Source of the DNA: Okeania sp. KiyG1
GTDB lineage: Bacteria; Cyanobacteriota; Cyanobacteriia; Cyanobacteriales; Microcoleaceae
Assembly: GCF_014132355.1 (NCBI RefSeq)
Contig: NZ_BLZO01000091.1
Coordinates: forward strand, 62,001-126,000
Length of the DNA: 64,000 nucleotides
Direction: 5' to 3'
Part shown: positions 1,743 through 14,400 of the stretch, one piece after another
How positions within the stretch are numbered: the first letter of the stretch is position 1
Layout: the number at the start of each line of letters is the position of its first letter
Made by a program: the position numbers and the translations under genes
Notes under the pieces: generated by a model
The model's input: only the letters and a program-made list of their open reading frames with translations
Told to the model about the DNA's origin: nothing
Database searches by the model: none

Positions 1743-4700
1743 ATGTTCACATCTGTTAAACCCACCGTTCGCCACATTGTCCCAGAAGACCTCAAAGGGC
1801 GATCGCTCTTAAAAGTCGTATATATCGTTTTAGAAGCACAATATCAGAGTTCTCTCTCAACAGCGGTGCGTTCTATTAACGAAAAAAATCCTAATTTGGC
1901 CATAGAAATAAGTGGCTATTTAATAGAAGAATTACGAGACCCACAAAATTACGAGAACTTTAAAAAAGAAGTTTCTGAAGCTAACATCTTTATCGCTTCC
2001 CTAATTTTCATTGAAGACTTGGCCGAAAAAGTAGTGGAGGCTGTCACCCCCCACCGAGATAAGCTGGACGCTGCTGTTGTTTTCCCTTCCATGCCACAAG
2101 TAATGCGCCTGAATAAAATGGGCAGTTTCTCAATGGCACAACTAGGCCAGAGTAAAAGCGCGATCGCTCAGTTTATGCGGAAGCGGAAGGAAAAATCTGG
2201 TTCTTCTTTCCAAGACGGAATGTTGAAGTTGCTGCAAACTCTGCCGAAGGTGTTGAAATATATGCCTATTGATAAGGCGCAGGATGCTAGGAACTTTATG
2301 CTTAGTTTCCAATATTGGTTAGGGGGTTCGTCGGAAAATCTGGAAAATTTCCTGCTGATGTTGGCAGATAAATATGTTTTCAAAGATAAGAAAAACAGCT
2401 CTCTCCAATATGTCGATCCAGTTGTTTATCCAGACATGGGTATCTGGCATCCCCTCGCACCAAAAATGTTTGAGGATGTTAAAGAATATCTCACCTGGTA
2501 CAACAGTCGCAAAGATATTTCTGAAGATTTGAAAGACCCCCTCGCTCCCTGTGTTGGGTTGGTATTGCAGCGTACCCACTTAGTTACGGGAGACGATGCT
2601 CACTATGTTGCCATGTTGCAAGAATTGGAAGCAATGGGAGCTAGAGTTATTCCTGTATTTGCTGGAGGGTTAGATTTTTCCAAACCAGTCGATGCTTATT
2701 TCTGGGAAGTTGCAGCTAAAGGAGTTGAACCCACACCATTAGTAGATACGGTAATTTCTCTAACGGGTTTTGCACTGGTTGGTGGACCTGCTAGACAAGA
2801 CCATCCGAAAGCTATTGAATCGTTGAAACGGTTGAACAGACCATATATGGTAGCTTTGCCTCTGGTTTTCCAAACTACCGAAGAATGGGAAGAAAGCGAA
2901 CTTGGTCTGCATCCCATACAAGTAGCTTTGCAAATAGCTATTCCAGAATTGGATGGAGCGATCGAACCTATTATTATGTCTGGTCGTGATGGGGCAACCG
3001 GAAAAGCAATAGCTCTCCAAGACCGCATCGAAGCTGTTGCTCAACGCGCTATGAAATGGGCAAGTCTCAGACGTAAACCTAAACTCGACAAAAAAGTTGC
3101 TATTACCATTTTCAGTTTCCCACCAGATAAAGGAAATGTTGGTACTGCTGCATATTTAGATGTATTTGGTTCTATCTATGAAGTAGTAAAAGCACTCAAA
3201 GGTAACGGTTACGATATCCAAGACTTGCCAGACTCCGCAGAAGAATTGATGAAGCAAGTTATTCACGATGCTACTGCTCAATATCAAAGTCCGGAATTGA
3301 ATATTGCTCACCGGATGTCGGTCGAACAATACGAACGTTTGACTCCATACTCGGAAAGGTTGCATGAAAATTGGGGACCACCTCCAGGAAATTTGAATAG
3401 CGACGGCGAAAATTTATTAATCTACGGTAAAAGTTTCGGAAACCTTTTTATCGGAGTACAACCAACATTCGGTTATGAAGGGGACCCCATGCGGTTGTTG
3501 TTCTCCCGTTCCGCAAGTCCCCATCATGGTTTTGCTGCTTACTATACCTATTTAGAACAAATTTGGAAAGCTGATGCGGTGCTGCATTTCGGTACTCATG
3601 GTTCTCTAGAATTTATGCCTGGTAAACAAATTGGAATGTCTGGAGATTGTTATCCAGATAATCTCATTGGTAGTACTCCCAACATCTATTATTATGCAGC
3701 GAATAATCCTAGTGAGGCGACTATTGCTAAACGTCGGAGTTATGCTGAGACTATTTCTTACTTGACTCCCCCTGCGGAAAATGCTGGTTTATATAAAGGT
3801 TTGCAGGAATTGAACGAATTAATCGGTTCTTATCAAACTTTGAAGGATAGCGGACGGGGTATTCCTATTGTCAACACCATCATGGATAAGTGTCGGATGG
3901 TTAACTTAGACCAAGATATTATCCTGCCAGAAAAAGATGCTCAAGAGTTGACCGCTGAAGAACGAGATAACATTGTGGGTGATGTTTACCGCAGACTGAT
4001 GGAAATTGAGTCCCGGTTGTTGCCTTGTGGTTTACACATTATTGGTAAACCTCCTAGTTCTGAAGAGGCGATCGCTACTTTGGTAAATATTGCTAGTCTA
4101 GACAGAGAAGAGGAAGGGATAACTGGTTTACCTCGAATTATTGCTAATAGTCTCAACCGCGATATTGAGGAACTTTATCAAAATAATAATAAAGGTATTC
4201 TTGCCGATGTTGAGTTACTGCAAAAAATTGTTGAAGCGACTCGCAGTGCTGTAGCTGCATTAGTTCACCAACAAACTGACGCTGATGGTCGAGTTTCTAT
4301 GGTGAGCAAACTCAATTTCTTCAATATGAGGAAAAAAGCACCTTGGATAGAAGCTTTGGATGAAGCTGGTTTTCCTGATGTTGATACGGAAGTTATTAAA
4401 CCTCTGTTTGAATATTTGGAATTTTGCCTAGAACAGGTTTGTGCTGATAATGAATTAGGTTCTCTGTTACGAGCGTTGGAAGGGGAATATATTTTACCCG
4501 GACCTGGTGGCGACCCTATTCGGAACCCCGATGTTTTGCCTACTGGTAAAAATATGCACGCTCTAGACCCCCAGTCTATTCCTACTGCTGCTGCGGTGAA
4601 GTCGGCAAAAATTGTAGTTGACCGTTTATTGGCACGACAAATGCAGGAAAATGGTGGGCAATATCCAGAAACTATTGCTGTTGTGTTGTGGGGAACTGAC

Positions 4701-5732
4701 AATATCAAGACTTACGGTGAATCTCTCGCTCAAGTAATGTGGATGGTAGGTGTAAAACCTGTACCTGATGCTTTGGGTCGGGTGAATAAATTGGAATTAA
4801 TTCCATTGGAGGAATTAGGTCGTCCTCGTGTTGACGTAGTGATTAACTGTTCCGGTGTATTCCGAGATTTATTTATCAATCAAATGAATCTTTTGGATAA
4901 AGCTGTGAAAATGGCGGCAGAAGCGGACGAACCTACAGAAATGAATTTTGTTCGGAAGCACGCTCTCAAGCAAGCAGAAGAATTAGGGGTAAATTTACGT
5001 CAAGCTGCAACGCGGGTATTTTCTAATGCTTCCGGTTCTTATGCTGCGAATGTTAATTTGGCAGTGGAGAATAGTACCTGGGAAGATGAGTCGGAATTAC
5101 AGGAAATGTATTTGAAGCGTAAGTCGTTTGCTTTTAATTCTGATAACCCAGGAATGATGGAAGATAACCGGAAAGTATTTGAGTCAGCATTGAAAACTGC
5201 CGATGCTACATTCCAGAATTTAGATTCCTCGGAAATTAGTTTGACCGATGTGAGTCACTATTTTGATTCTGACCCGACAAAAATTGTAGCCACTCTCCGG
5301 GATGATGGTAAAAAACCATCTTCTTATATTGCGGATACAACAACTGCCAATGCTCAGGTGCGGTCTTTGTCTGAGACGGTACGTTTAGATGCTCGGACAA
5401 AAATGTTGAATCCAAAATGGTATGAGGGAATGTTGTCTCATGGTTATGAAGGGGTGCGGGAATTGTCAAAGCGTCTCGTGAATACTATGGGATGGAGTGC
5501 CACTGCTGGTGCCGTGGATAATTGGGTTTATGAGGATGTGAACGAGACCTTTATTAAAGATGAGCAGATGCAGCAGCGGTTGTTGAATTTGAATCCCCAT
5601 TCGTTCCGGAAGATGGTGACTACATTGTTAGAAGTGAACGGTCGCGGTTATTGGGAGACCAGTGAGAGTAATTTGGATAAGTTGAGAGAGTTGTATCAGC
5701 AAGTGGAGGATAGAATTGAGGGGATAGAGTAA
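1743..5732 (+). CDS. chlH: Magnesium chelatase subunit H
   Basis: ChlH is the large porphyrin-binding subunit of Mg-chelatase. With ChlI and ChlD it inserts Mg2+ into protoporphyrin IX, the first committed step of chlorophyll synthesis, and is the subunit stimulated by GUN4. At 1329 residues it has the full length of cyanobacterial ChlH. The N terminus ([20 protein letters not shown]) and the CobN/Mg-chelatase core (for example [19 protein letters not shown] near residues 618-636) match the family as I know it. The start is supported by CAAGGAG at 1727-1733, nine bases before the ATG. No chlI, chlD or gun4 gene is nearby; the gene is monocistronic and followed by a hairpin at 5812. No frame defect is seen. 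Confidence 0.97.
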
Positions 5733-5811: not shown

Positions 5812-5846
5812 AGGGTGGGTGAATATTTATTTGCCCGCCCTATTTT
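5812..5846. terminator. Probable bidirectional terminator between chlH and the DUF2442 gene
   Basis: AGGGTGGG at 5812-5819 pairs with CCCGCCCT at 5834-5841 (one G-T pair), with a 14-base AT-rich loop. T-rich tracts lie on both sides, so the hairpin could terminate chlH on plus and the convergent gene on minus. Confidence 0.6.
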
Positions 5847-6781
5847 AGATTATTAGTTTCAGTAGAAGTTTTTGCTAATGCTAACTTTTCTAAAAAATCT
5901 TCACCTAATTTAGTTAGTTCACAATATTTAGTCAAGTCAATATCATCTTGTCCATCTTTACTGTCTCTTTGTAAATCAGATACATACTTATATGGTCGCT
6001 TAATTTTGATTAATCCTGAATCTCTTAAACTTCTCAATTCTGATGCTACCTGCTTAGGAACTTTAAATTTAAAGTCAGTATTCTTTTCAGTATGTTCTTT
6101 AAGCTTCTGTAGTTTTTCTGTCATTTTTTCTTCAAGAAGTCGTGGGTACATAAACATAAAATTTTGCAGTTTTTTGATATCATCAATTTGCTTTTGTTGA
6201 AAATTGTCTATTTCTTCTTGGTTTTTATTCACTTTATTTTTTAGGTCTTTGAATTCTGCCTTAAATCCTTTAGGTGATAAGTCCAAAGTTTTAAATATTT
6301 TTGATGCTTCTGGTTGAAGCAATAAGATAATAATCAGTAAAATAAGATCAGGGAAATTAGTATCAGGAATTTTTATGATATTATCTGCAATTTTTTCTTG
6401 ATATTTCAAATCTGAAATAATATTTATTACTATTTGAATAACAGGAAAAATTATTAGCTTAAGAGATAAATAAATAAGTATAAATTTAGAGCTAATATCT
6501 AATTGTTTAAATTTTTTGTTTGTTGATTTTTGATGAGCAGGGCTAGCTTTTAATAATCCCTTAGTCCTAATATATACATATATTTCCTCCCAATAAATAC
6601 CATAACGATCACCAGATATTTTCCATGCTTGTCGTTGTTTTGAAGTTGCTTTTAATAGACGAGGATACCAAACTAAAGGAACAGTGATGGTACGTCCATT
6701 CATCAGTTCAACACTGAAAGTATCCTTTTGTATTTTTACATTTTTAACTCGCTCATCAGCTTGATGTGTTGAAATACTCAT
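5840..6781 (-). CDS. DUF2442-domain protein fused to membrane and coiled-coil segments
   Basis: Residues 1-75 from the start I prefer (MSISTHQ, ATG at 6781, preceded by GGAG) look like DUF2442: DERVKNVKI, NGRTITVPLVWYPRLL and WKISGDRYGIYWEEI. Stand-alone DUF2442 proteins are about 80-90 residues and are usually paired with DUF4160, a toxin-antitoxin-like arrangement. Here the domain continues for over 200 more residues: two hydrophobic segments (about residues 95-122 and 141-160), a Lys/Glu-rich coiled-coil, and a C-terminal stretch (VASELRSLRDSGLIKI) that reads like a winged helix. The upstream DUF4160 gene is broken, so this half survives alone. An alternative ATG 39 bases upstream is possible. 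The function of the fused part is unknown. Confidence 0.75.
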   Translation of the reverse strand: MSISTHQADERVKNVKIQKDTFSVELMNGRTITVPLVWYPRLLKATSKQRQAWKISGDRYGIYWEEIYVYIRTKGLLKASPAHQKSTNKKFKQLDISSKFILIYLSLKLIIFPVIQIVINIISDLKYQEKIADNIIKIPDTNFPDLILLIIILLLQPEASKIFKTLDLSPKGFKAEFKDLKNKVNKNQEEIDNFQQKQIDDIKKLQNFMFMYPRLLEEKMTEKLQKLKEHTEKNTDFKFKVPKQVASELRSLRDSGLIKIKRPYKYVSDLQRDSKDGQDDIDLTKYCELTKLGEDFLEKLALAKTSTETNNLK

Positions 6782-7000
6782 TCCATTTCTCCAAAAAATT
6801 TTGTTGATTAAATTCCACAATTGATTGAATTTTTCTTCACTCTCTCAGAACTAAACCCAATATTTGATCGCTAGAGATACAGAAGATAACCAAAATTTGG
6901 CAGAAAAATTATCTCTATCAACATGAATATGTGGTGATTCATTTGGTTCGTGACTATAGAAGTAAAAGCGATATGCTTCAAACCTGAGAACAGTTGGCAT
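6756..7000 (-). pseudogene. DUF4160 gene remnant (partner of DUF2442)
   Basis: From ATG at 7000 the minus strand reads MPTVLRFEAYRFYFYSHEPN, then ESPHIHVDRDNFSAKFW, which is DUF4160, before hitting stops near residue 48. Other frames then supply NIGFSS and finally FLEKWNEYF, ending at a TGA at 6756 that overlaps the DUF2442 start. The gene therefore seems to have suffered at least two frameshifts and a stop. DUF4160-DUF2442 is a common adjacent pair; this is the upstream member in the expected order and overlap. Confidence 0.7.
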
Positions 7001-7050
7001 TTTTACCACTAAAATTTACTTTATTAATAGCATATATTGTCAAGCTTGGC

Positions 7051-7145
7051 AAAATGTAGAAATAATTATGCAAGAATAGATAGAAACTGCTCAAAAATTA
7101 GGACGAGAAATTCCTACACCAAAAATACGGTCAATATTGACATAG
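7051..7145 (+). pseudogene. HicB-family fragment, copy A
   Basis: The bases match the 3' half of the intact hicB-like gene at 12501 (VEIIMQEW, IETAQ, IPTPK, SIL), but the codon for Trp of QEW is TAG. It is followed by the same HIP1-rich tail (acaggcgatcgcc) seen after the other decayed copies. Confidence 0.75.
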
Positions 7146-7197
7146 ATAAAACAGGCGATCGCCCTCCTAAGAAAAAGAGCGATCGCTAATCTACCAA

Positions 7198-7503
7198 TTA
7201 TCCATCAATATCCTGAGAGAAAATCATCTCCAAATCTCGATAACCGCTAATTACTCGCACTATTTGCACCCCATCATCCATTTGACGATAGAAGATGATG
7301 TAATTTTCTACTGGAAAACTTCTGAGACCGGGTTCTAACTCATCACATTTTTGCCCCATTTCGGGAAAATCAGCTAACAGTTTACACTGCTGTTTAATTC
7401 TATTAATAAGTCTCCTAGCAGCATTAGAATTAAACCTAGCAATATAGCGGTTAATTTCCTTTAATTCCTGTTTTGCCAGAGGAGAAATAATAAATCGACT
7501 CAT
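7198..7503 (-). CDS. ParE/RelE-superfamily toxin
   Basis: A 101-residue protein with the ParE-like pattern: an N-terminal strand (SRFIISPLAKQELKEI), paired helices ending LADFPEMGQKCDELEPGLRS, and C-terminal strands (YIIFYRQMDDGVQIVRVISG). ParE toxins of this family usually poison DNA gyrase; RelE relatives cleave mRNA on ribosomes, and sequence reading alone does not decide between them. The gene overlaps the end of the antitoxin gene by one base, the normal parDE order. No defect is visible. Confidence 0.85.
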   Translation of the reverse strand: MSRFIISPLAKQELKEINRYIARFNSNAARRLINRIKQQCKLLADFPEMGQKCDELEPGLRSFPVENYIIFYRQMDDGVQIVRVISGYRDLEMIFSQDIDG

Positions 7504-7784
7504 TACTTAATTATCCCTTGTTTCATTTCAGTTTCAATGCACTTAATATCTGCCTCCAACTCTGCAAATACCTCTTCTCCATCAATTCCTTCACCGCGAT
7601 CTAACTTTTCTATTCCCATTCTTATTTTTTCTTTCAACTCAACAAAATGTTTGGAGCGAATACTCTCTTTGTCCGATAAAAGTCGCAATGCTTCTCCCAC
7701 TACTTCTGTAGCGGAGGAATACCTACCACTATTAACTTGTTCCTCAATAAATTTTTGCGCTTCTAGACTTAAAGATATGTTCAT
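7503..7784 (-). CDS. ParD-like antitoxin
   Basis: A 93-residue protein beginning MNISLSLEAQKFIEEQVNSG and continuing RYSSATEVVGEALRLL, a ribbon-helix-helix DNA-binding domain of ParD/CopG type. The acidic C-terminal half (GEEVFAELEADIKCIETEM) is where the toxin-binding segment is expected. It is the first gene of a two-gene unit with the ParE toxin and probably represses its own promoter, as known for the family. Confidence 0.85.
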   Translation of the reverse strand: MNISLSLEAQKFIEEQVNSGRYSSATEVVGEALRLLSDKESIRSKHFVELKEKIRMGIEKLDRGEGIDGEEVFAELEADIKCIETEMKQGIIK

Positions 7785-7861
7785 AAAAACGACCTAAATA
7801 ATTGTCAAATTATTAAAATTATAACCCTAGTAGGAGAATATAGCAAGTTGCATAATTTACA

Positions 7862-8008
7862 GAATTACCAGCTTGTCTATCTGAGAGGTTTCTCTATCAG
7901 TCAGCACTGCAATTCAGGTAGAAATTAATTATGCAAGAATGGATAGAAACTGCTCAAGAATTAGGACGAGAAATTCCTACACCAAAAATTCGGTCAATAT
8001 TGTCATAG
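7862..8008 (+). pseudogene. HicB-family fragment, copy B
   Basis: In frame with the intact copy it reads ELPACLSER, YQSALQ, then a TAG, then MQEWIETAQELGREIPTPK to TAG at 8008. The N-terminal half is missing. It sits between parDE and the DUF7689 gene and has the same HIP1-rich tail as copy A. Confidence 0.75.
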
Positions 8009-8054
8009 ATCAAACAGGCGATCGCCTTCCTCATAACAAGAGCGATCGCTCCTC

Positions 8055-8498
8055 TCAATAATCAATAGCTCGTTTCAGAATTTGCCCTACAACTCCATAG
8101 CGATCGCCAGTCAAAGCATCAAGTTCATGTTCGATATCCTCCAACCATCCCAGTTTACTTACCCACTTCCCATTAGCTAACTGTCTGGCAGCATGAGTTG
8201 GTATATTTTCCGAATCAACATAAAGCGCAATTTTTTCAAACCCTGCTTCTAGCTCATCGCCATCGCAAACTTCGTATCCCAGAGTTTGATAAGCTTGAAT
8301 ATATGCTTCTAAAGTTTCCTCTTGAGGTACACCATCCGGCCAATAAAAACGATCGCCAGGCGTTGCTTGCCACCAGCGGTCTGTCTCTCCTGCTGCATAA
8401 GCAAAACAATTATACTCTTGAGATTTAGAGCTTGTCACCCTGTAGTCAGTACCAGACAAATTAGGCCACTTAAACTCTAGTTCTGGTCTTCTGTACAT
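8055..8498 (-). CDS. DUF7689-type protein, possible papain-like effector
   Basis: This 147-residue protein has the conserved features I associate with DUF7689: EYNCFAYAAGETDRWW (Cys31), YWPDGVP, GYEVCDGDELEAG, and THAARQLANGKWVSKLG (His102) followed by DIEHELDAL. A Cys in an N-C-F-A-Y helix start and a His opening a THAA strand recall NlpC/P60 or papain-like folds, so a peptidase or amidase activity is possible; this is inference. Its ATG directly follows the TAA of the TIR-TIR-GUN4 gene with no spacer, implying translational coupling and a shared task. No defect seen. Confidence 0.7.
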   Translation of the reverse strand: MYRRPELEFKWPNLSGTDYRVTSSKSQEYNCFAYAAGETDRWWQATPGDRFYWPDGVPQEETLEAYIQAYQTLGYEVCDGDELEAGFEKIALYVDSENIPTHAARQLANGKWVSKLGWLEDIEHELDALTGDRYGVVGQILKRAIDY

Positions 8499-10349
8499 TT
8501 AAACTGTGTAACCCCGCTCTTTTCCCCACTCTAACCAAGCTTCTGCCATCCGTTTAACTCGCCCTCGTTGTTCTGGTTTGATGGGATTTTCTCCTGTTAT
8601 GTCCTCTAATGCTGATAACCAGTATAGAGGATTTTGCTTCAATTCTTGAAGTAACAAAGGTACTATTTGAGTTCCCATCTGGATAATTTCTTGGTAGGCA
8701 GGATGTTGAGACATTCTTGCGGTAGATGACATTCCCTCTACTTCTTTTTCCCATTGTTCGGCAAGAGTAGAAAATTTGTTAGTAAGTTCAGGATTTACTT
8801 GTACGCTTAATGTACTTTCCTCTTCTTGACTAGCAACTCTTCTCATTAGACGAAGTGTTTCTTCATCAGCTAGTTTATTGGGGATAGGTCTCACTCTATT
8901 TTTTTCGCGACTTCTATAACTTATGTTGCATTTGAAAAGCTTCTGCATAAGATAATGATGATCTAAAGAAACACCACCAATAAATAATCTTCTACCACCT
9001 CCCAATAATCCTCCACTACCCTCCCCACCCCAACCAGGGAGATGTCCTTCATTAGCTGTTTCCAGATTAAACACAAGCTCAGAGTAAGATAACCATTTTT
9101 CTCCTTGACGCCAACCTACTTTGTCGCCAAACAATTTCCATATTTCTAAATCAATATTACTAGCTGCATTACCTGCACCGCCTAAACTATGATAAATTTC
9201 TTTCTGCACTGAAAAACCAAATTTATGACTGCTGTACTTCAGCCAAAGTTGGTCAATTTTGTAGAGTTCTTGACAAGGAAAATTGTTAATTGATTGTTCA
9301 TCTAACCAACCCTTCTCCTCTCGCTTTGTAATTGTCAACATACAACGGGCAGTTTCTTCATCTGCTTCTTTCCAGTTTCCTTGACTAAGTAATGTCTCTA
9401 ATTTCTTGTAATCATAACCAACTTCAGATTGTGGGTTTGGTTGAACTGGAGATGTTTGAATAGCTTGTGTTGATTTGCTCTGCGCTCTAATCTCTAGACA
9501 TATCTGTAATAATCTGCTCATTTCCCTATCATCATCCAAACTATCAAGAGATATAGAATGAAGCCTTTTTAGATAATTTAACTCACTAGGAAGATTATCT
9601 ATACTACTTCCGGGTAAAGGTATCGGAACAATTTTAGGGTTTTTTCTACCGCTAGATACATAACGATTATATAAATAGTCTACTTCTTCGTATTGCCATT
9701 TCCCTATGCCATTTTTTCCAATAAAAAAGAAAGCCAGATTAGTTTCATCCAGAGTTTTGTAGAGTTTTGCTTGCCATTCATCTCCTCCCACAAACTGACT
9801 TTCATCAAGCCATGTTACGATACCCTCTTTTTTAAGTTTGTTAGCAATAATTCTCACACTATCTTTATCACGACTATTATGACTCAGGAAAACATCAAAT
9901 TCTTCTGGTTCTGAGTCTTCAAGGGTTAATTGAAGTGGCCTTCTTCCTTTAATTCCCCAAATTAGCATCTCCAGAGGATTAGATTGAGAATCTCGAAAAT
10001 CTACCCAGATATTCTCTTCTAAAAACAATGGTAATTTAGGTTTTTCAGGAGCATTAGCTAACAAAACTGGAATTACAGGACACCCTCGCTTTACAAACCG
10101 CCGTAAAAAAGGTTGAATTTCATTGTTATCCCAAGGTCCTAAAGGATTATTTCCAATAAAAACAGCCACTGCCTTAATATTTTCAATTTGTCCCTCAAGT
10201 TCTTGTTGCCAAAGTGAACCAGGCGGGACTTCCGATTTATCCCAAGAATTAATTCCTCTGGTTTTAAGTTGTTTAGCAATCTTTTCTACTTCACGCCTAT
10301 CATTACTGTTGTAACAAAGAAAAACATCAAATTCTTTGATTTTAACCAT
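8499..10349 (-). CDS. TIR-TIR-GUN4 multidomain protein
   Basis: The 616 residues contain two TIR domains: about 7-133 (FDVFLCYNSND, GNNPLGPWDNNEI) and 151-290 (FDVFLSHNSRD, GKNGIGKWQYEEV). A GUN4-like domain follows at about 313-440 (YKKLETLLSQGNWKEADEET, EEKGWLD, IDQLWLKYS, FGDKVGW). The last 100 residues (ELTNKFSTLAEQW, HPAYQEIIQMG, LYWLSALEDITGENP) form a separate helical domain seen in small cyanobacterial proteins of unknown function. Known TIR domains either scaffold signalling or cleave NAD; by eye the position of the catalytic Glu reads Gln in both copies, so activity is uncertain. GUN4 domains bind tetrapyrroles in the stand-alone protein. An AGGAG precedes the ATG; the gene lies 10 bases after the partner gene and abuts the DUF7689 gene. 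Confidence 0.85.
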   Translation of the reverse strand: MVKIKEFDVFLCYNSNDRREVEKIAKQLKTRGINSWDKSEVPPGSLWQQELEGQIENIKAVAVFIGNNPLGPWDNNEIQPFLRRFVKRGCPVIPVLLANAPEKPKLPLFLEENIWVDFRDSQSNPLEMLIWGIKGRRPLQLTLEDSEPEEFDVFLSHNSRDKDSVRIIANKLKKEGIVTWLDESQFVGGDEWQAKLYKTLDETNLAFFFIGKNGIGKWQYEEVDYLYNRYVSSGRKNPKIVPIPLPGSSIDNLPSELNYLKRLHSISLDSLDDDREMSRLLQICLEIRAQSKSTQAIQTSPVQPNPQSEVGYDYKKLETLLSQGNWKEADEETARCMLTITKREEKGWLDEQSINNFPCQELYKIDQLWLKYSSHKFGFSVQKEIYHSLGGAGNAASNIDLEIWKLFGDKVGWRQGEKWLSYSELVFNLETANEGHLPGWGGEGSGGLLGGGRRLFIGGVSLDHHYLMQKLFKCNISYRSREKNRVRPIPNKLADEETLRLMRRVASQEEESTLSVQVNPELTNKFSTLAEQWEKEVEGMSSTARMSQHPAYQEIIQMGTQIVPLLLQELKQNPLYWLSALEDITGENPIKPEQRGRVKRMAEAWLEWGKERGYTV

Positions 10350-10359
10350 TTACAAACTC

Positions 10360-10816
10360 CTATTTTGAATATTCAACACCAGCAATTTCAGCTAAAGCTT
10401 GAGCATATTGATTTAACTCCCCTCGCAAAATCTCCAATTCCTTTCGCGCTTCAGGTTCGTCTATCCACCGCACCTCATATTCTTTAGGACTAACATCGTC
10501 AGGTTTCTGAGCTTCCCAAACCTGTAAATTAGAATGCCACTTTGTGATAAAAGGTCTCAAACCAAGGTTTGAGAACAGCAATAGCAATGCCACCAACCGA
10601 ATTATGAGATGCACCCACATCAGGACCAGCTTCTTTAAGAATTTCACGAGTAGTTTCAAACAAGCTATACAGAGAATTTAAAGTCTCTCTTAGAATACCT
10701 CGATCTTCTTCCAAAGGTTGTACCGAAATGCGCGTCACTAATTCAACATAGAGCGACCAAGCAGCATGACGCTCTGTTAGATCGGCCTCCCATTCTGCCG
10801 AACCTAGACCAAAGGG
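10360..10816 (-). pseudogene. Helical partner gene of the TIR-GUN4 unit, 3' part, interrupted and frameshifted
   Basis: Joined across frames the minus strand reads GLGSAEWEADLTERHAAW, SLYVELVTRISVQPLEEDRG, GPDVGASHNSVGGIAIAVLN, LRPFITKWHSNLQVWE, ending EIAGVEYSK. One extra A near 10572 (CTCAAACC for CTCAACC) shifts the frame after AIAVL. The 5' end is cut at about 10816 by a tnpB element; the missing start codons lie beyond it at 12164-12211. The family is, as I recall, a conserved all-helical cyanobacterial protein found beside TIR or CHAT genes; its function is not known to me. Being first in the unit, its loss may also affect transcription of the two genes after it. Confidence 0.7.
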
Positions 10817-10872
10817 TTTTTAACAGCTTGACATAATCTATGATTATCTACTATTATCTAGTATAATCTATA

Positions 10873-12117
10873 TTGAATTTTATGCTACTAGGATTCAAAA
10901 CCGAGTTATACCCAAATAATAAACAAAAAACCTTGCTGGCTAAACACGCTGGTGTAGCTCGTCATGCTTACAATTGGGGACTATGGTTAACTAAGAACAT
11001 CCTTAATCACAATTTCAATAATCCTTCAGGTAAACTTAAATTTCCTACTGCAATTGACCTGCATAAACTTTTAGTAGCAATGGTTAAACCTAACAACTAT
11101 TGGTATTATGAAGTATCGATCGGGTGCGCCTCAATATGCTTTGAGGTATTTATCAGATGGTTGGAAGCGTTGCTTTAGCAAAGTCTCAGGACAACCTCAA
11201 TTTAAGAAAAAAGGTAGAGATGATAGTTTTCCTGCGGAATGCTACGCAAACACTTTGGATGGTTCCATATCGGTAGGTTTTAATCGTATAAAGTTACCTC
11301 GAATTGGTTGGGTAAAAACCTTTGAAATATTGCCAGACAATGTTAGTCCAAAGTCTGTAACTATTACCAAAAAGGCAGGTAGATGGTTTATTAGTTTCAA
11401 GATAGAAACAGCTTCCATAAATACTGAGAAATCAGTAGATGTAGTTGGTGTAGATTTAGGTATAAAATCTCTAGCTACTTTATCTACTGGTGAAGTATTT
11501 GAAGGGGCTAAGTCTTATAGAAAGTTAGAATCTAAATTATCACGACTGCAATATCTCAACAGACATAAAACTAAATTCTCTAAGAACTGGAAAAAATCTC
11601 AACTTAAGATAGCTCAGTTACACAACACGATAGCCAACATCAGAAAAGATACATTGCATAAACTGACTACCTATCTAGCTAAAAACCACAGCCAGATAGT
11701 AATAGAAGACTTAAATGTATTAGGTATGATGGCGAACCATAAACTAGCTAAGGCTGCCCTAGTCTATGGGTTTTTATGAGTTCAGAAGACAGTTAGAGTA
11801 CAAGTGTGAGTTATATAGTTCTGAGCTAACTGTTGTTGATAGATGGTTTCCTAGCTCTAAGACTTGCAGTAGGTGTGGAACTGTTAAAGAGTCTTTATCT
11901 TTATCTGAGAGAGTGTTTAAGTGCGAACACTGCAATTTTAGTTGTGATTGCTCCGCAACGCTAGCGCGAACGAGACTTGAATGCAGCGTTAAATTTAGCT
12001 ATGGCGGTCAGTTTGCTCCGCAACGCTAGCGCGTTTCGCGTCAGCGTTGCGAAGCAAACGACCGTGACAGCCTGTGGACTGGATAACGCCGACGTTGCCA
12101 GAATGAAGCAGGAATAG
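10873..12117 (+). pseudogene. tnpB: TnpB (RNA-guided nuclease family), frameshifted and hairpin-invaded
   Basis: The gene begins MNFMLLGFKTELYPNNKQ and runs through three frames. RuvC motifs are present: VVGVDLGIKSLA (Asp) and IVIEDLNVLGM (Glu). The zinc finger has TCSRCG and CEHCNF, and the expected end TVTACGLDNADVARMKQE reaches TAG at 12115. Frame changes occur near 11120 and 11765. A 22-base insertion at 11949-11970 breaks the RuvC-III region (CD to DLNAALNLAMAV), and a 48-base hairpin insertion at 12013-12060 keeps frame. TnpB proteins are guide-RNA nucleases that act in transposon maintenance; this copy is surely inactive as one protein. Confidence 0.85.
12013..12060. repeat. Palindromic hairpin insertion in tnpB
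   Basis: TTGCTCCGCAACGCT at the start pairs with AGCGTTGCGAAGCAA at the end, with GCGCG/CGCGT continuing the stem around TTT. The flanking codons GTCAGT and ACCGTG rejoin as the conserved AVSTV of TnpB, so the 48 bases are an insertion. A half-length relative (TGCTCCGCAACGCTAGCGCG) sits at 11949-11970 in the same gene. Confidence 0.75.
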
Positions 12118-12163
12118 AACAGATAATCATAGATTTCTATAGATTATCGTAGGTTTCTAAGAA

Positions 12164-12211
12164 CGGAAGACTAACTGATACTTTTTTTAAAACTGCCGGG
12201 TCTCGTGTCAT
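12164..12211 (-). pseudogene. 5' end of the interrupted helical partner gene
   Basis: From ATG at 12211 the minus strand encodes MTRDPAVLKKVSVSLP and then enters the insertion element. It fits as the missing N terminus of the gene that resumes at 10816. The 289 bases from here to the hicB-like gene at 12501 are AT-rich, contain one HIP1 octamer, and would hold the promoter of the TIR-GUN4 unit; I recognise no motif. Confidence 0.65.
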
Positions 12212-12500
12212 AGAATTTTCCTCATTTTAGAGATGGCTAGGCTTAAATAAAAAAAATTAATAGTTTCTAATAATGTAGCACAAGCATATTCTCAACTAAT
12301 AAGGAATTTCCAGAAAAACTTATAAAATCAAAGAGCGATCGCTCTTTAAAGAAGCTATACTTTAGTCCAAAACCTTAACTCTAAATTGGCCACCTAGCCT
12401 AAAATTCTAAATATTCTAGCCAAAAGCCCATAAGCAAAAGCTCATCAAGTCAAACAAATTCGTGCAGTTATTATCAAATATCATCTAGAAAATTAAGCCA

Positions 12501-12710
12501 ATGCTACACTACGAAATAATCCTCTACTGGAGTCAAGAAGACCAAGCATTTATAGCAGAAGTTCCAGAATTACCTGGTTGTATAGCTGATGGACAAACCT
12601 ATCAGTCAGCACTACAAAATGTAGAAATAATTATGCAAGAATGGATAGAAACTGCTCAAGAATTAGGACGAGAAATTCCGACACCAAAAACACGCTCAAT
12701 ATTGGCATAA
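12501..12710 (+). CDS. HicB-family antitoxin-like protein, solitary
   Basis: The 69-residue protein has the HicB partial RNase H-like fold signature: YEIILYWSQEDQAFIAEVPE, then LPGCIADGQTYQSALQNVEI and MQEWIETAQELGREIPTPK. It lacks the extra C-terminal DNA-binding helix found in some HicB proteins. No hicA gene (a small dsRBD-like mRNA interferase) is adjacent, so it may be an orphan antitoxin or belong to the solitary HicB-like families common in cyanobacteria. Three decayed copies of the same gene lie within 7 kb. Confidence 0.8.
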   Translation: MLHYEIILYWSQEDQAFIAEVPELPGCIADGQTYQSALQNVEIIMQEWIETAQELGREIPTPKTRSILA

Positions 12711-12900
12711 TTTATGAATAATTTTTGAGCGTTTGCCGAACATAACCTAAGAATCACCAAGCATCCTCTAAAAATCGCCTCATCCAAAAAACAATCAAAT
12801 TACAAAATTGAACGATGAGCAAATGCAGCAACGCCTTTTGAATTCAATATTACTTTTTGCGGTAGATTAGAAACGTTTCACCTATTAATATCAATTAATC

Positions 12901-13401
12901 TCAGACATATTTATAAGCTCGCCTCGCGGTCACTGGGTTAAACTGAGTATCCACAAATTGAACCGGATCGTAAGTCTCAATCCACAAATGAGCGCCACAA
13001 TCTAAAGGTTGATAGGGCTTATAAACTATACGACACCGACCTTCAAGAACTATTTGATAACCTAAGTCATTACGATTTCTCTGCTTAACAGATACTACTG
13101 GCTTCAATTGATCGGGAGTCATTAGAGGATCGTGCTTAATTCTCTTGCCATTTTTTTTAATTTTCTGTTGATTGACATGAATTATCGTCGGTTTCTTTCG
13201 TTCCTGATGACACCAAATACCTTTCGGACCTCTTGTACCTGGTACGACGACAGGCATTTTCCGCTCACCATAAACAGGAATTTTCCAAAATCCTTTATGC
13301 TTATAAGCACCTCTAATTCTACCTTGAGAAAGTAGAACTCTTACTCGTTGACAACAAATACCTAATAAAAAAGCAGCTTCTCTAGTTGTAATAGTAGTCA
13401 T
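12901..13401 (-). CDS. Helix-turn-helix (excisionase/MerR-like) protein
   Basis: The N-terminal 45 residues (TTREAAFLLGICCQRVRVLL, SQGRIRGAYKHKGFWKIP) fit the winged-helix fold of excisionase-like HTH_17 domains, which read short DNA sites. The remaining 120 residues are basic, then end in a domain (YQIVLEGRCRIVYKPYQPLD, HLWIETYDP) that I do not recognise. It may be a regulator from a mobile element or a genome-defence island. It has no obvious operon partner. Confidence 0.6.
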   Translation of the reverse strand: MTTITTREAAFLLGICCQRVRVLLSQGRIRGAYKHKGFWKIPVYGERKMPVVVPGTRGPKGIWCHQERKKPTIIHVNQQKIKKNGKRIKHDPLMTPDQLKPVVSVKQRNRNDLGYQIVLEGRCRIVYKPYQPLDCGAHLWIETYDPVQFVDTQFNPVTARRAYKYV

Positions 13402-13751: not shown

Positions 13752-14075
13752 ATGCCTATACAATCAGTAATTACAGAATATATTGACATCACCCCTGGTG
13801 TTTTAGGTGGCAAACCACGCATTGCTGGTCATCGCATTTCAGTTGCTCATGTAGCTGAAATGTATCTGAAAATGGGAATATCTATAGAAGAAATTGCAGG
13901 TAAATACAATCTACCTTTAGCCGCAGTTCATGCAGCAATGGCATATTATTACGATCGCCGAGAAGAAATAGACAGACATACTGCTGAAAGTCGAGCTAAG
14001 GTAGAAGAATTAAAACGAAATAGTCCTCCATCTCCACTACAAGCAAAATTAAAAGCAATTAGAGATGAGCAATAA
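13752..14075 (+). CDS. DUF433 antitoxin
   Basis: 107 residues with the DUF433 pattern: ITEYIDITPGVLGGKPRIAG, HRISVAHVAEMYL and IEEIAGKYNLPLAAVHAAMAYYYDRREEID. DUF433 proteins carry a helix-turn-helix and act as antitoxins or repressors for PIN-like toxins. The stop overlaps the start of the DUF5615 gene by 11 bases, the standard arrangement of the pair. An ATG at 13752 follows an A-rich leader without a clear ribosome site. Confidence 0.85.
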   Translation: MPIQSVITEYIDITPGVLGGKPRIAGHRISVAHVAEMYLKMGISIEEIAGKYNLPLAAVHAAMAYYYDRREEIDRHTAESRAKVEELKRNSPPSPLQAKLKAIRDEQ

Positions 14076-14400
14076 AATTAAATTTCATTTAGACGAACAC
14101 ATCGACAATAGCATTGCAAATGGGTTACGTCGTTACGGTATAGATGTAACAACTACTGTAGAGACTGGGTTAAGAACTCAAAGTTATGAGTCGCACTTAG
14201 AATTTATCCGCAGTGAAAAACGAGTGATGGTGACTCACGATGAGGACTTTCTGATTATAGCTAGTCAAACAAACGAACACCCTGGAATTGCTTATTGTTC
14301 ACCTAACTCTCGTTCCATTGGTGAAATTATCAGATGTCTGATTTTGATTTATGAGGTTTATAATCGAGAGGAAATGATAGGTAGAGTAGAATATATTTGA
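14065..14400 (+). CDS. DUF5615 PIN-like toxin
   Basis: 111 residues with the DUF5615 PIN-like core: KIKFHLDEHIDNSIANGLRR (Asp and Glu near the N terminus), a TTTVETGLRTQSYESHLEFI segment, and VMVTHDEDFLII (Asp pair). These acidic positions match the metal site expected for a PIN-type ribonuclease. It is translationally coupled to DUF433 and the pair is presumed to be a type II toxin-antitoxin module. Frame is intact. Confidence 0.85.
   Translation: MSNKIKFHLDEHIDNSIANGLRRYGIDVTTTVETGLRTQSYESHLEFIRSEKRVMVTHDEDFLIIASQTNEHPGIAYCSPNSRSIGEIIRCLILIYEVYNREEMIGRVEYI

Follow-up and report, generated by a model that had tools for sequence, protein, structure and literature searches.

Do three closely spaced minus-strand genes of Okeania sp. 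KiyG1 make up one conflict system? They lie at positions 8055 to 12211 of the stretch analysed here (64,000 nucleotides of contig NZ_BLZO01000091.1, from a genome of 11 Mb; hereafter the window), and a first-pass annotation had read them as genes for a helical protein, a TIR-TIR-GUN4 protein and a DUF7689 protein acting together. Probably they do not. The reading preferred here is a decayed Okeania copy of a conflict module consisting of HEL, the working name used for the upstream 'helical' gene and its protein, and a TIR-sensor protein, the latter being fused to the C-terminal domain (CTD) that belongs to a separate CTD-DUF7689 pair.

Genes of the window and the broken HEL gene

The TIR-TIR-GUN4 and DUF7689 genes were confirmed by Pfam and are open over their whole length, whereas the 'helical' gene is not a single gene at 10360-12211 but a pseudogene, split by an insertion and frameshifted. 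Related Okeania loci used for comparison are L093, from Okeania sp. SIO1I7 (JAAHGF010000006), and L095/L160, from Okeania hirsuta (NZ_RCBY01000010). The features of the window locus are as follows.

12161..12211, minus strand: 5′ remnant of HEL, the first ~17 codons; 17 residues identical to the intact HEL of L093 and L095
10817..12160, plus strand: insertion with TnpB (OrfB_IS605) reading-frame fragments inside HEL, limits approximate; OrfB_IS605 at 11108-11779, E 1.8e-26
10360..10819, minus strand: remnant of the HEL body, pseudogene, in two frames (10529-10819 and 10360-~10551) with 89 % and 71 % identity to the L093 HEL
8499..10349, minus strand: TIR-TIR-GUN4-CTD protein, 616 aa
8502..8804, minus strand: CTD-coding part of the TIR-TIR-GUN4 gene, the partner domain of DUF7689 proteins; 62-85 % identity to CTD stretches of other genomes
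8055..8498, minus strand: DUF7689 protein, 147 aa, with conserved Cys31 and His102 (PF24738, E 6e-43); toxin candidate of the CTD-DUF7689 pair

The TnpB fragments span 10873-12029 on the plus strand. After the insertion, the HEL reading resumes near 10816 and its frame shifts near 10550; in blastn, the DNA of L093 joins the window flanks 12162 and 10816 directly. Okeania sp. SIO1I7 has an intact HEL orthologue of 166 aa (L093:9253-9753), followed by a TIR-TIR-GUN4 gene (476 aa), a DUF7689 remnant, and a further TIR protein. In the window, which has no intact HEL, the HEL remnant adjoins the TIR-TIR-GUN4 gene on its upstream side, 10 bases apart, and the TIR-TIR-GUN4 and DUF7689 genes abut with a spacing of 0. 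With HEL lost, the window copy of the operon probably does not work as such.

The proposed architecture of the middle protein, two TIR domains, GUN4 and a C-terminal domain, was borne out: TIR_2 matches in two stretches (Pfam E 3e-41), GUN4 (PF05419) matches residues 308-439 (E 2e-41), solved Gun4 chains also match the protein, and the CTD has matches in other genomes.

HEL-TIR pairing across genomes

A scan of genome contigs found 42 HEL loci, all but two of them in cyanobacterial records; the others are metagenome-assembled genomes of Omnitrophota and Phycisphaerales. Four loci without a listed HEL frame were dropped, leaving 38, which include short HEL fragments (46-139 aa, five loci), near-duplicate loci such as L153/L154, and L137, kept although its HEL sits in a 301-aa frame. 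In 31 of the 38, the distance from HEL to a TIR gene is 1.5 kb or less, and in 18 of the 38 the TIR gene encodes a TIR-GUN4 protein. In addition, Pfam recognised a TIR at the Phycisphaerales locus. Same-strand TIR genes at no more than 200 bp were seen for 25 out of 37 HEL frames, against 17 out of 399 other frames in the same loci (Fisher p 9e-21, from loci that are not independent, near-duplicates being included). HEL was present in 23 of 386 genomes drawn from the phylum. Loci with intact HEL and TIR-GUN4 genes include those of Microcystis (L152), Aphanizomenon (L138), and Brasilonema (L140).

Pairing extends beyond the cyanobacteria. Eleven plasmid records contain HEL, with a TIR-annotated gene in six of the seven regions opened, Ruegeria being the exception; HEL relatives are near TIR genes on plasmids of Streptomyces, Photobacterium, Vibrio, Sinorhizobium, and Aureispira. 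In Photobacterium, 13 bases separate HEL from the gene of a TIR protein, whose match to the PADLOC TIR-NLR model spans residues 1-812 (E 9e-277). On viral contigs, TIR is near HEL in the one case out of one, and the phage collection searched contained neither HEL nor DUF7689. HEL and a TIR-sensor protein are a real two-gene module, conserved beyond the window genome, and the earlier suggestion of a TIR-based conflict unit is supported. Through this pairing, TIR immune-type genes can be traced by sequence in groups ranging from cyanobacteria to Streptomyces and Vibrionaceae.

Two further arrangements were observed. In Okeania and Trichodesmium, a larger locus (L126:1023-7806, also L122 and L124) encodes HEL, a TIR-coiled-coil protein, proteins of ~740 aa and ~830 aa, and a ubiquitin-like protein, the last three having no Pfam match above cut-off. 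On a Sinorhizobium plasmid (L226:5902-8526), a HEL-like N-terminus is joined to a weak patatin-like phospholipase match, with several TIR genes around it.

The HEL model (predicted local distance difference test, pLDDT, 77) is a β-hairpin with four helices. No match to the Okeania HEL was found in Pfam, NCBIfam, PHROGs, or PADLOC, and another HEL gave only a chance-level Pfam match (E 0.39). Likewise, PADLOC did not match five distant HEL proteins or the HEL-phospholipase-like protein, PDB sequence profiles did not match HEL, and Foldseek with the model against the PDB returned nothing under E 0.26. In these searches, HEL thus had no assigned family, no defence model, and no convincing structural match; as it is unnamed, it may have been described elsewhere. 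A role as regulator or scaffold is a guess.

Exchange of the sensor region

The remainder of the TIR protein changes while HEL stays. In the Microcystis loci L152 and L158, HEL and TIR are near-identical, but L152 carries GUN4 where L158 carries TPR. Elsewhere, the partner of HEL carries an FGE-sulfatase domain (L146), a histidine-specific methyltransferase domain (L143), HD-CE with an HSP90-type ATPase domain (L150), WD40 (Streptomyces), or a TIR-NLR-like region (L125). On a HEL tree of 42 rows (frames of 140-195 aa, identical ones entered partly once, bootstrap unsettled), the GUN4 label requires nine changes, at least five of them forced by well-supported branches, compared with a shuffled mean of 14.2. 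The sensor part has therefore been repeatedly swapped, among GUN4, TPR, FGE-sulfatase, methyltransferase, HD-CE, WD40, and NLR. The one-locus swaps in Microcystis are direct test material for what each sensor detects.

In Okeania hirsuta, GUN4 is on the HEL protein and on the TIR protein alike (L160), a HEL-GUN4 fusion being seen beside the TIR-GUN4 gene at L095:5691-6512.

The CTD-DUF7689 pair

The CTD, at about residues 515-616 of the window TIR protein, matches stand-alone proteins encoded upstream of DUF7689. It lies directly upstream of DUF7689 in 29/29, 18/21, and 6/6 loci of three locus sets, and in the window the CTD-coding gene also adjoins DUF7689 upstream, the CTD there being fused to TIR-TIR-GUN4. 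The N-termini carried by the CTD vary and include Panacea (E 1.8e-23), AbrB-like (E 1.5e-32), and DUF433 (E 5e-22) domains. This looks like a separate toxin-antitoxin-like pair, the putative antitoxin domain of which is fused to TIR-TIR-GUN4 in Okeania, and so a toxin-antitoxin candidate independent of HEL-TIR.

The first-pass annotation had proposed that helical protein, TIR-TIR-GUN4 sensor, and DUF7689 hydrolase form one system of three components; in such a system, DUF7689 could be an extra effector released by TIR-GUN4. The window genes fit this in their order and spacing, the sister Okeania (L093) keeps its DUF7689 remnant in the same place, in an arrangement probably older than the split, and of 386 genomes 10 have both HEL and DUF7689, where ~1.4 would be expected. 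However, the nine other genomes with both families have them on different contigs or more than 0.4 Mb apart, and both families may favour large genomes, which would inflate the co-occurrence. Scanning of the HEL loci with CTD and DUF7689 models, built from the window sequence alone, found these only in the window, plus the DUF7689 remnant of the Okeania orthologue. As DUF7689 is accompanied by a CTD partner at almost every locus examined and is not linked to the other HEL loci scanned, it was rejected as an effector of the TIR module, and a three-component system is very unlikely. Of the conserved neighbourhood that had been sought, the HEL-TIR(-GUN4) part stands and the DUF7689 part does not.

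In favour of the CTD-DUF7689 pair as a unit of its own, blastn shows that L093 follows the window to 8924 and then continues at 8219, one clean gap. The 704 bases missing from L093 (window 8220-8923) include the CTD and, for DUF7689, the first 93 codons. Since the gap is a joint one and the DUF7689 remnant is in place, the fused arrangement probably predates the split from the sister Okeania. Joint loss of the CTD and the DUF7689 N-terminus is what would be expected were DUF7689 harmful without the CTD. In a related genus (L094), a free CTD and a DUF7689 remnant have as neighbour a Mg-chelatase-type gene, of a family also represented in the window.

Comparison of DUF7689 with PDB sequence profiles gave E values of 0.08 or weaker, and Foldseek on its model gave nothing under E 0.09. 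Set against the papain-like/NlpC-P60 fold with its catalytic Cys and His, the model shows a weak resemblance to papain-like folds, with which the earlier idea of a Cys/His hydrolase would fit. Plasmids searched had no DUF7689, the CTD-DUF7689 pair occurs on viral-collection contigs too, and a literature search found no paper naming DUF7689. Four of the DUF7689 loci (L208-L211), all from a single genus that is Microcystis judging by its HEL copies, have a GUN4 frame of ~130 aa at a distance of ~1 kb.

GUN4 domains and tetrapyrrole sensing

The joining of GUN4 to TIR had been thought undescribed. It is in print: TIR is named among the fusion partners of GUN4, for which tetrapyrrole sensing is predicted (PMC7159879), and GUN4 is listed among the domains of such systems (PMC8195603). 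A literature search gave no paper with both GUN4 and anti-phage, and a single one combining the GUN4 domain, TIR and cyanobacteria. In canonical Gun4, Phe196 and Arg214 (PMC8967248) and an LxNxLR motif (PMC10156173) are important for binding; the latter source reports that the Asn of this motif is retained by no member of its cyanobacterial paralogue clade.

The canonical Gun4 of the window genome has all three features. Contrary to the expectation of a retained ligand pocket, LxNxLR is in none of 23 GUN4 domains of HEL loci (21 of these in TIR proteins), nor in any of 24 other GUN4 domains of the window genome. Only 3/23 HEL-locus domains have F at the Phe196 column and 3/23 have R at the Arg214 column, the latter less sure than the motif as the alignment is loose after GHLP. 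Tetrapyrrole sensing by these domains is therefore doubtful. Changing the motif Asn in Chlamydomonas GUN4 abolished bilin binding and spared porphyrin binding (PMC10156173), so some tetrapyrrole binding may persist. The role of many GUN4 fusions of filamentous cyanobacteria as tetrapyrrole sensors is put in question.

These counts bear on whether the locus could be a photosynthesis-status switch, in which GUN4 would bind a tetrapyrrole and turn on TIR in response to disturbed chlorophyll or bilin metabolism, with a functional link to one neighbouring gene.

1743..5732, plus strand: CobN/Mg-chelatase-family gene (CobN-Mg_chel Pfam), which we take to encode the Mg-chelatase H subunit; a marker of the locus shared among Okeania, outside the system

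The same type of gene is near the system in L093 and L095/L160, making three genomes of the genus. This, the published GUN4-fusion prediction (PMC7159879), and the additional GUN4 that Okeania hirsuta carries on its HEL protein would favour such a switch. Against it, besides the missing pocket features, tblastn over the loci compared matched the chelatase gene only in Okeania loci, and not in HEL loci of other genera, plus L094, which is from another genus and has the CTD but no HEL. The latter suggests a shared insertion site; a functional link to the chelatase was rejected, and the switch is considered unlikely.

Two observations concern GUN4 in general. The PADLOC PD-T4-6 model matches the window GUN4 domain (E 1e-39), and may thus label any GUN4 protein as that defence system. 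The window genome also encodes a 786-aa protein (L032:4946-7306) combining Macro, SLOG-type, GUN4, pentapeptide repeat, and receiver domains.

Setting of the locus

The surroundings are rich in toxin-antitoxin genes, as had been proposed: ParD/ParE at 7198-7784, a HicB-like gene at 12501-12710, and DUF433 and DUF5615 genes at 13752-14400. At 7850-8025 there is a stretch of ~170 bases, by eye resembling a HicB-like gene remnant, with several copies in L093/L094 and one in L095.

Such a setting raises the alternative that the locus is debris: mobile and toxin-antitoxin genes decaying at a hotspot, in an accidental order and without products being made. The broken HEL, the fragmented TnpB, the truncated DUF7689 of the sister species, and the dispersed repeat copies would all agree with this. 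Although it deserves some weight, it is doubtful, given that the window frames of TIR-TIR-GUN4-CTD and DUF7689 are uninterrupted from end to end and that HEL-TIR linkage is kept in many genera.

Proposed mechanism

Beyond the architectures, adjacency, sensor exchange, HEL decay, and joint gap observed, we infer the following biochemical steps for a decayed HEL-TIR module fused to the CTD of a separate pair. In intact relatives HEL, the constant partner, would hold or license the TIR protein, the rest of which would act as the sensor; this exchangeable part is GUN4 at roughly half of the loci in cyanobacteria. Once a cue linked to infection or stress is sensed, the TIR domains would assemble and cleave NAD+, leading to dormancy or death, or to a nucleotide signal. 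TIR NADases have a glutamate after a conserved Trp; both window TIRs have a W-x(1-4)-E motif, which also occurs in 47 of the 54 TIR domains from the loci. On this motif, the window TIR domains are predicted to cleave NAD+.

In the other part, the CTD would neutralise a papain-like DUF7689 enzyme, with varied N-termini, some of antitoxin type, swapped onto it. The TIR-TIR-GUN4 protein would supply the CTD in the window. TIR-TIR-GUN4-CTD and DUF7689 may therefore survive as a pair, because the CTD would be needed to restrain DUF7689.

A bolder version makes HEL a general, unnamed partner of TIR immune receptors in different bacterial phyla and the Okeania TIR-TIR-GUN4 protein, through its captured CTD, the antitoxin of a papain-like toxin. 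The receptor would then guard itself, as a phage that inactivated or degraded it would set DUF7689 free. This is regarded as quite unlikely.

Comparison with known systems

The window TIR domains match Thoeris ThsB models, over the TIR part only, and match the NCBIfam retron-TIR model below its cut-off; a scan of nine proteins encoded at 5840-13401 recognised neither ThsA nor a retron gene.

In a published test, E. coli was protected against phages by a TIR-NLR system (PMC9122126). The Photobacterium partner of HEL (L223) is a nearly full-length match to TIR-NLR (PADLOC PDLC03015) and the Microcoleus partner a partial one (E 3e-33), whereas the window protein, with GUN4 and CTD rather than NLR, has no listed match to this model. 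The E. coli genes matched by the Photobacterium gene (68.5 % identity over 16 %) are annotated as TIR proteins; in the two E. coli regions opened, no HEL is annotated beside them.

Panacea-type hyperpromiscuous toxin-antitoxins (PMC8832971) share with the CTD-DUF7689 pair the shuffling of domains on the antitoxin side, and one CTD protein has a Panacea domain. They differ in that here the CTD is constant, there is a single toxin-candidate family, DUF7689, and it is the N-terminus that varies.

Closest to the window protein are the GUN4-effector fusions of Kaur et al. (2020; PMC7159879), in which GUN4, the predicted sensor, is joined to TIR, caspase, trypsin, or kinase. The passages of that source consulted mention no pairing with HEL, and the GUN4 domains of HEL loci are without the pocket motif. 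While TIR-GUN4 fusions are already in print, the partnership with HEL appears to be the new part, and the window holds a decayed copy of it.

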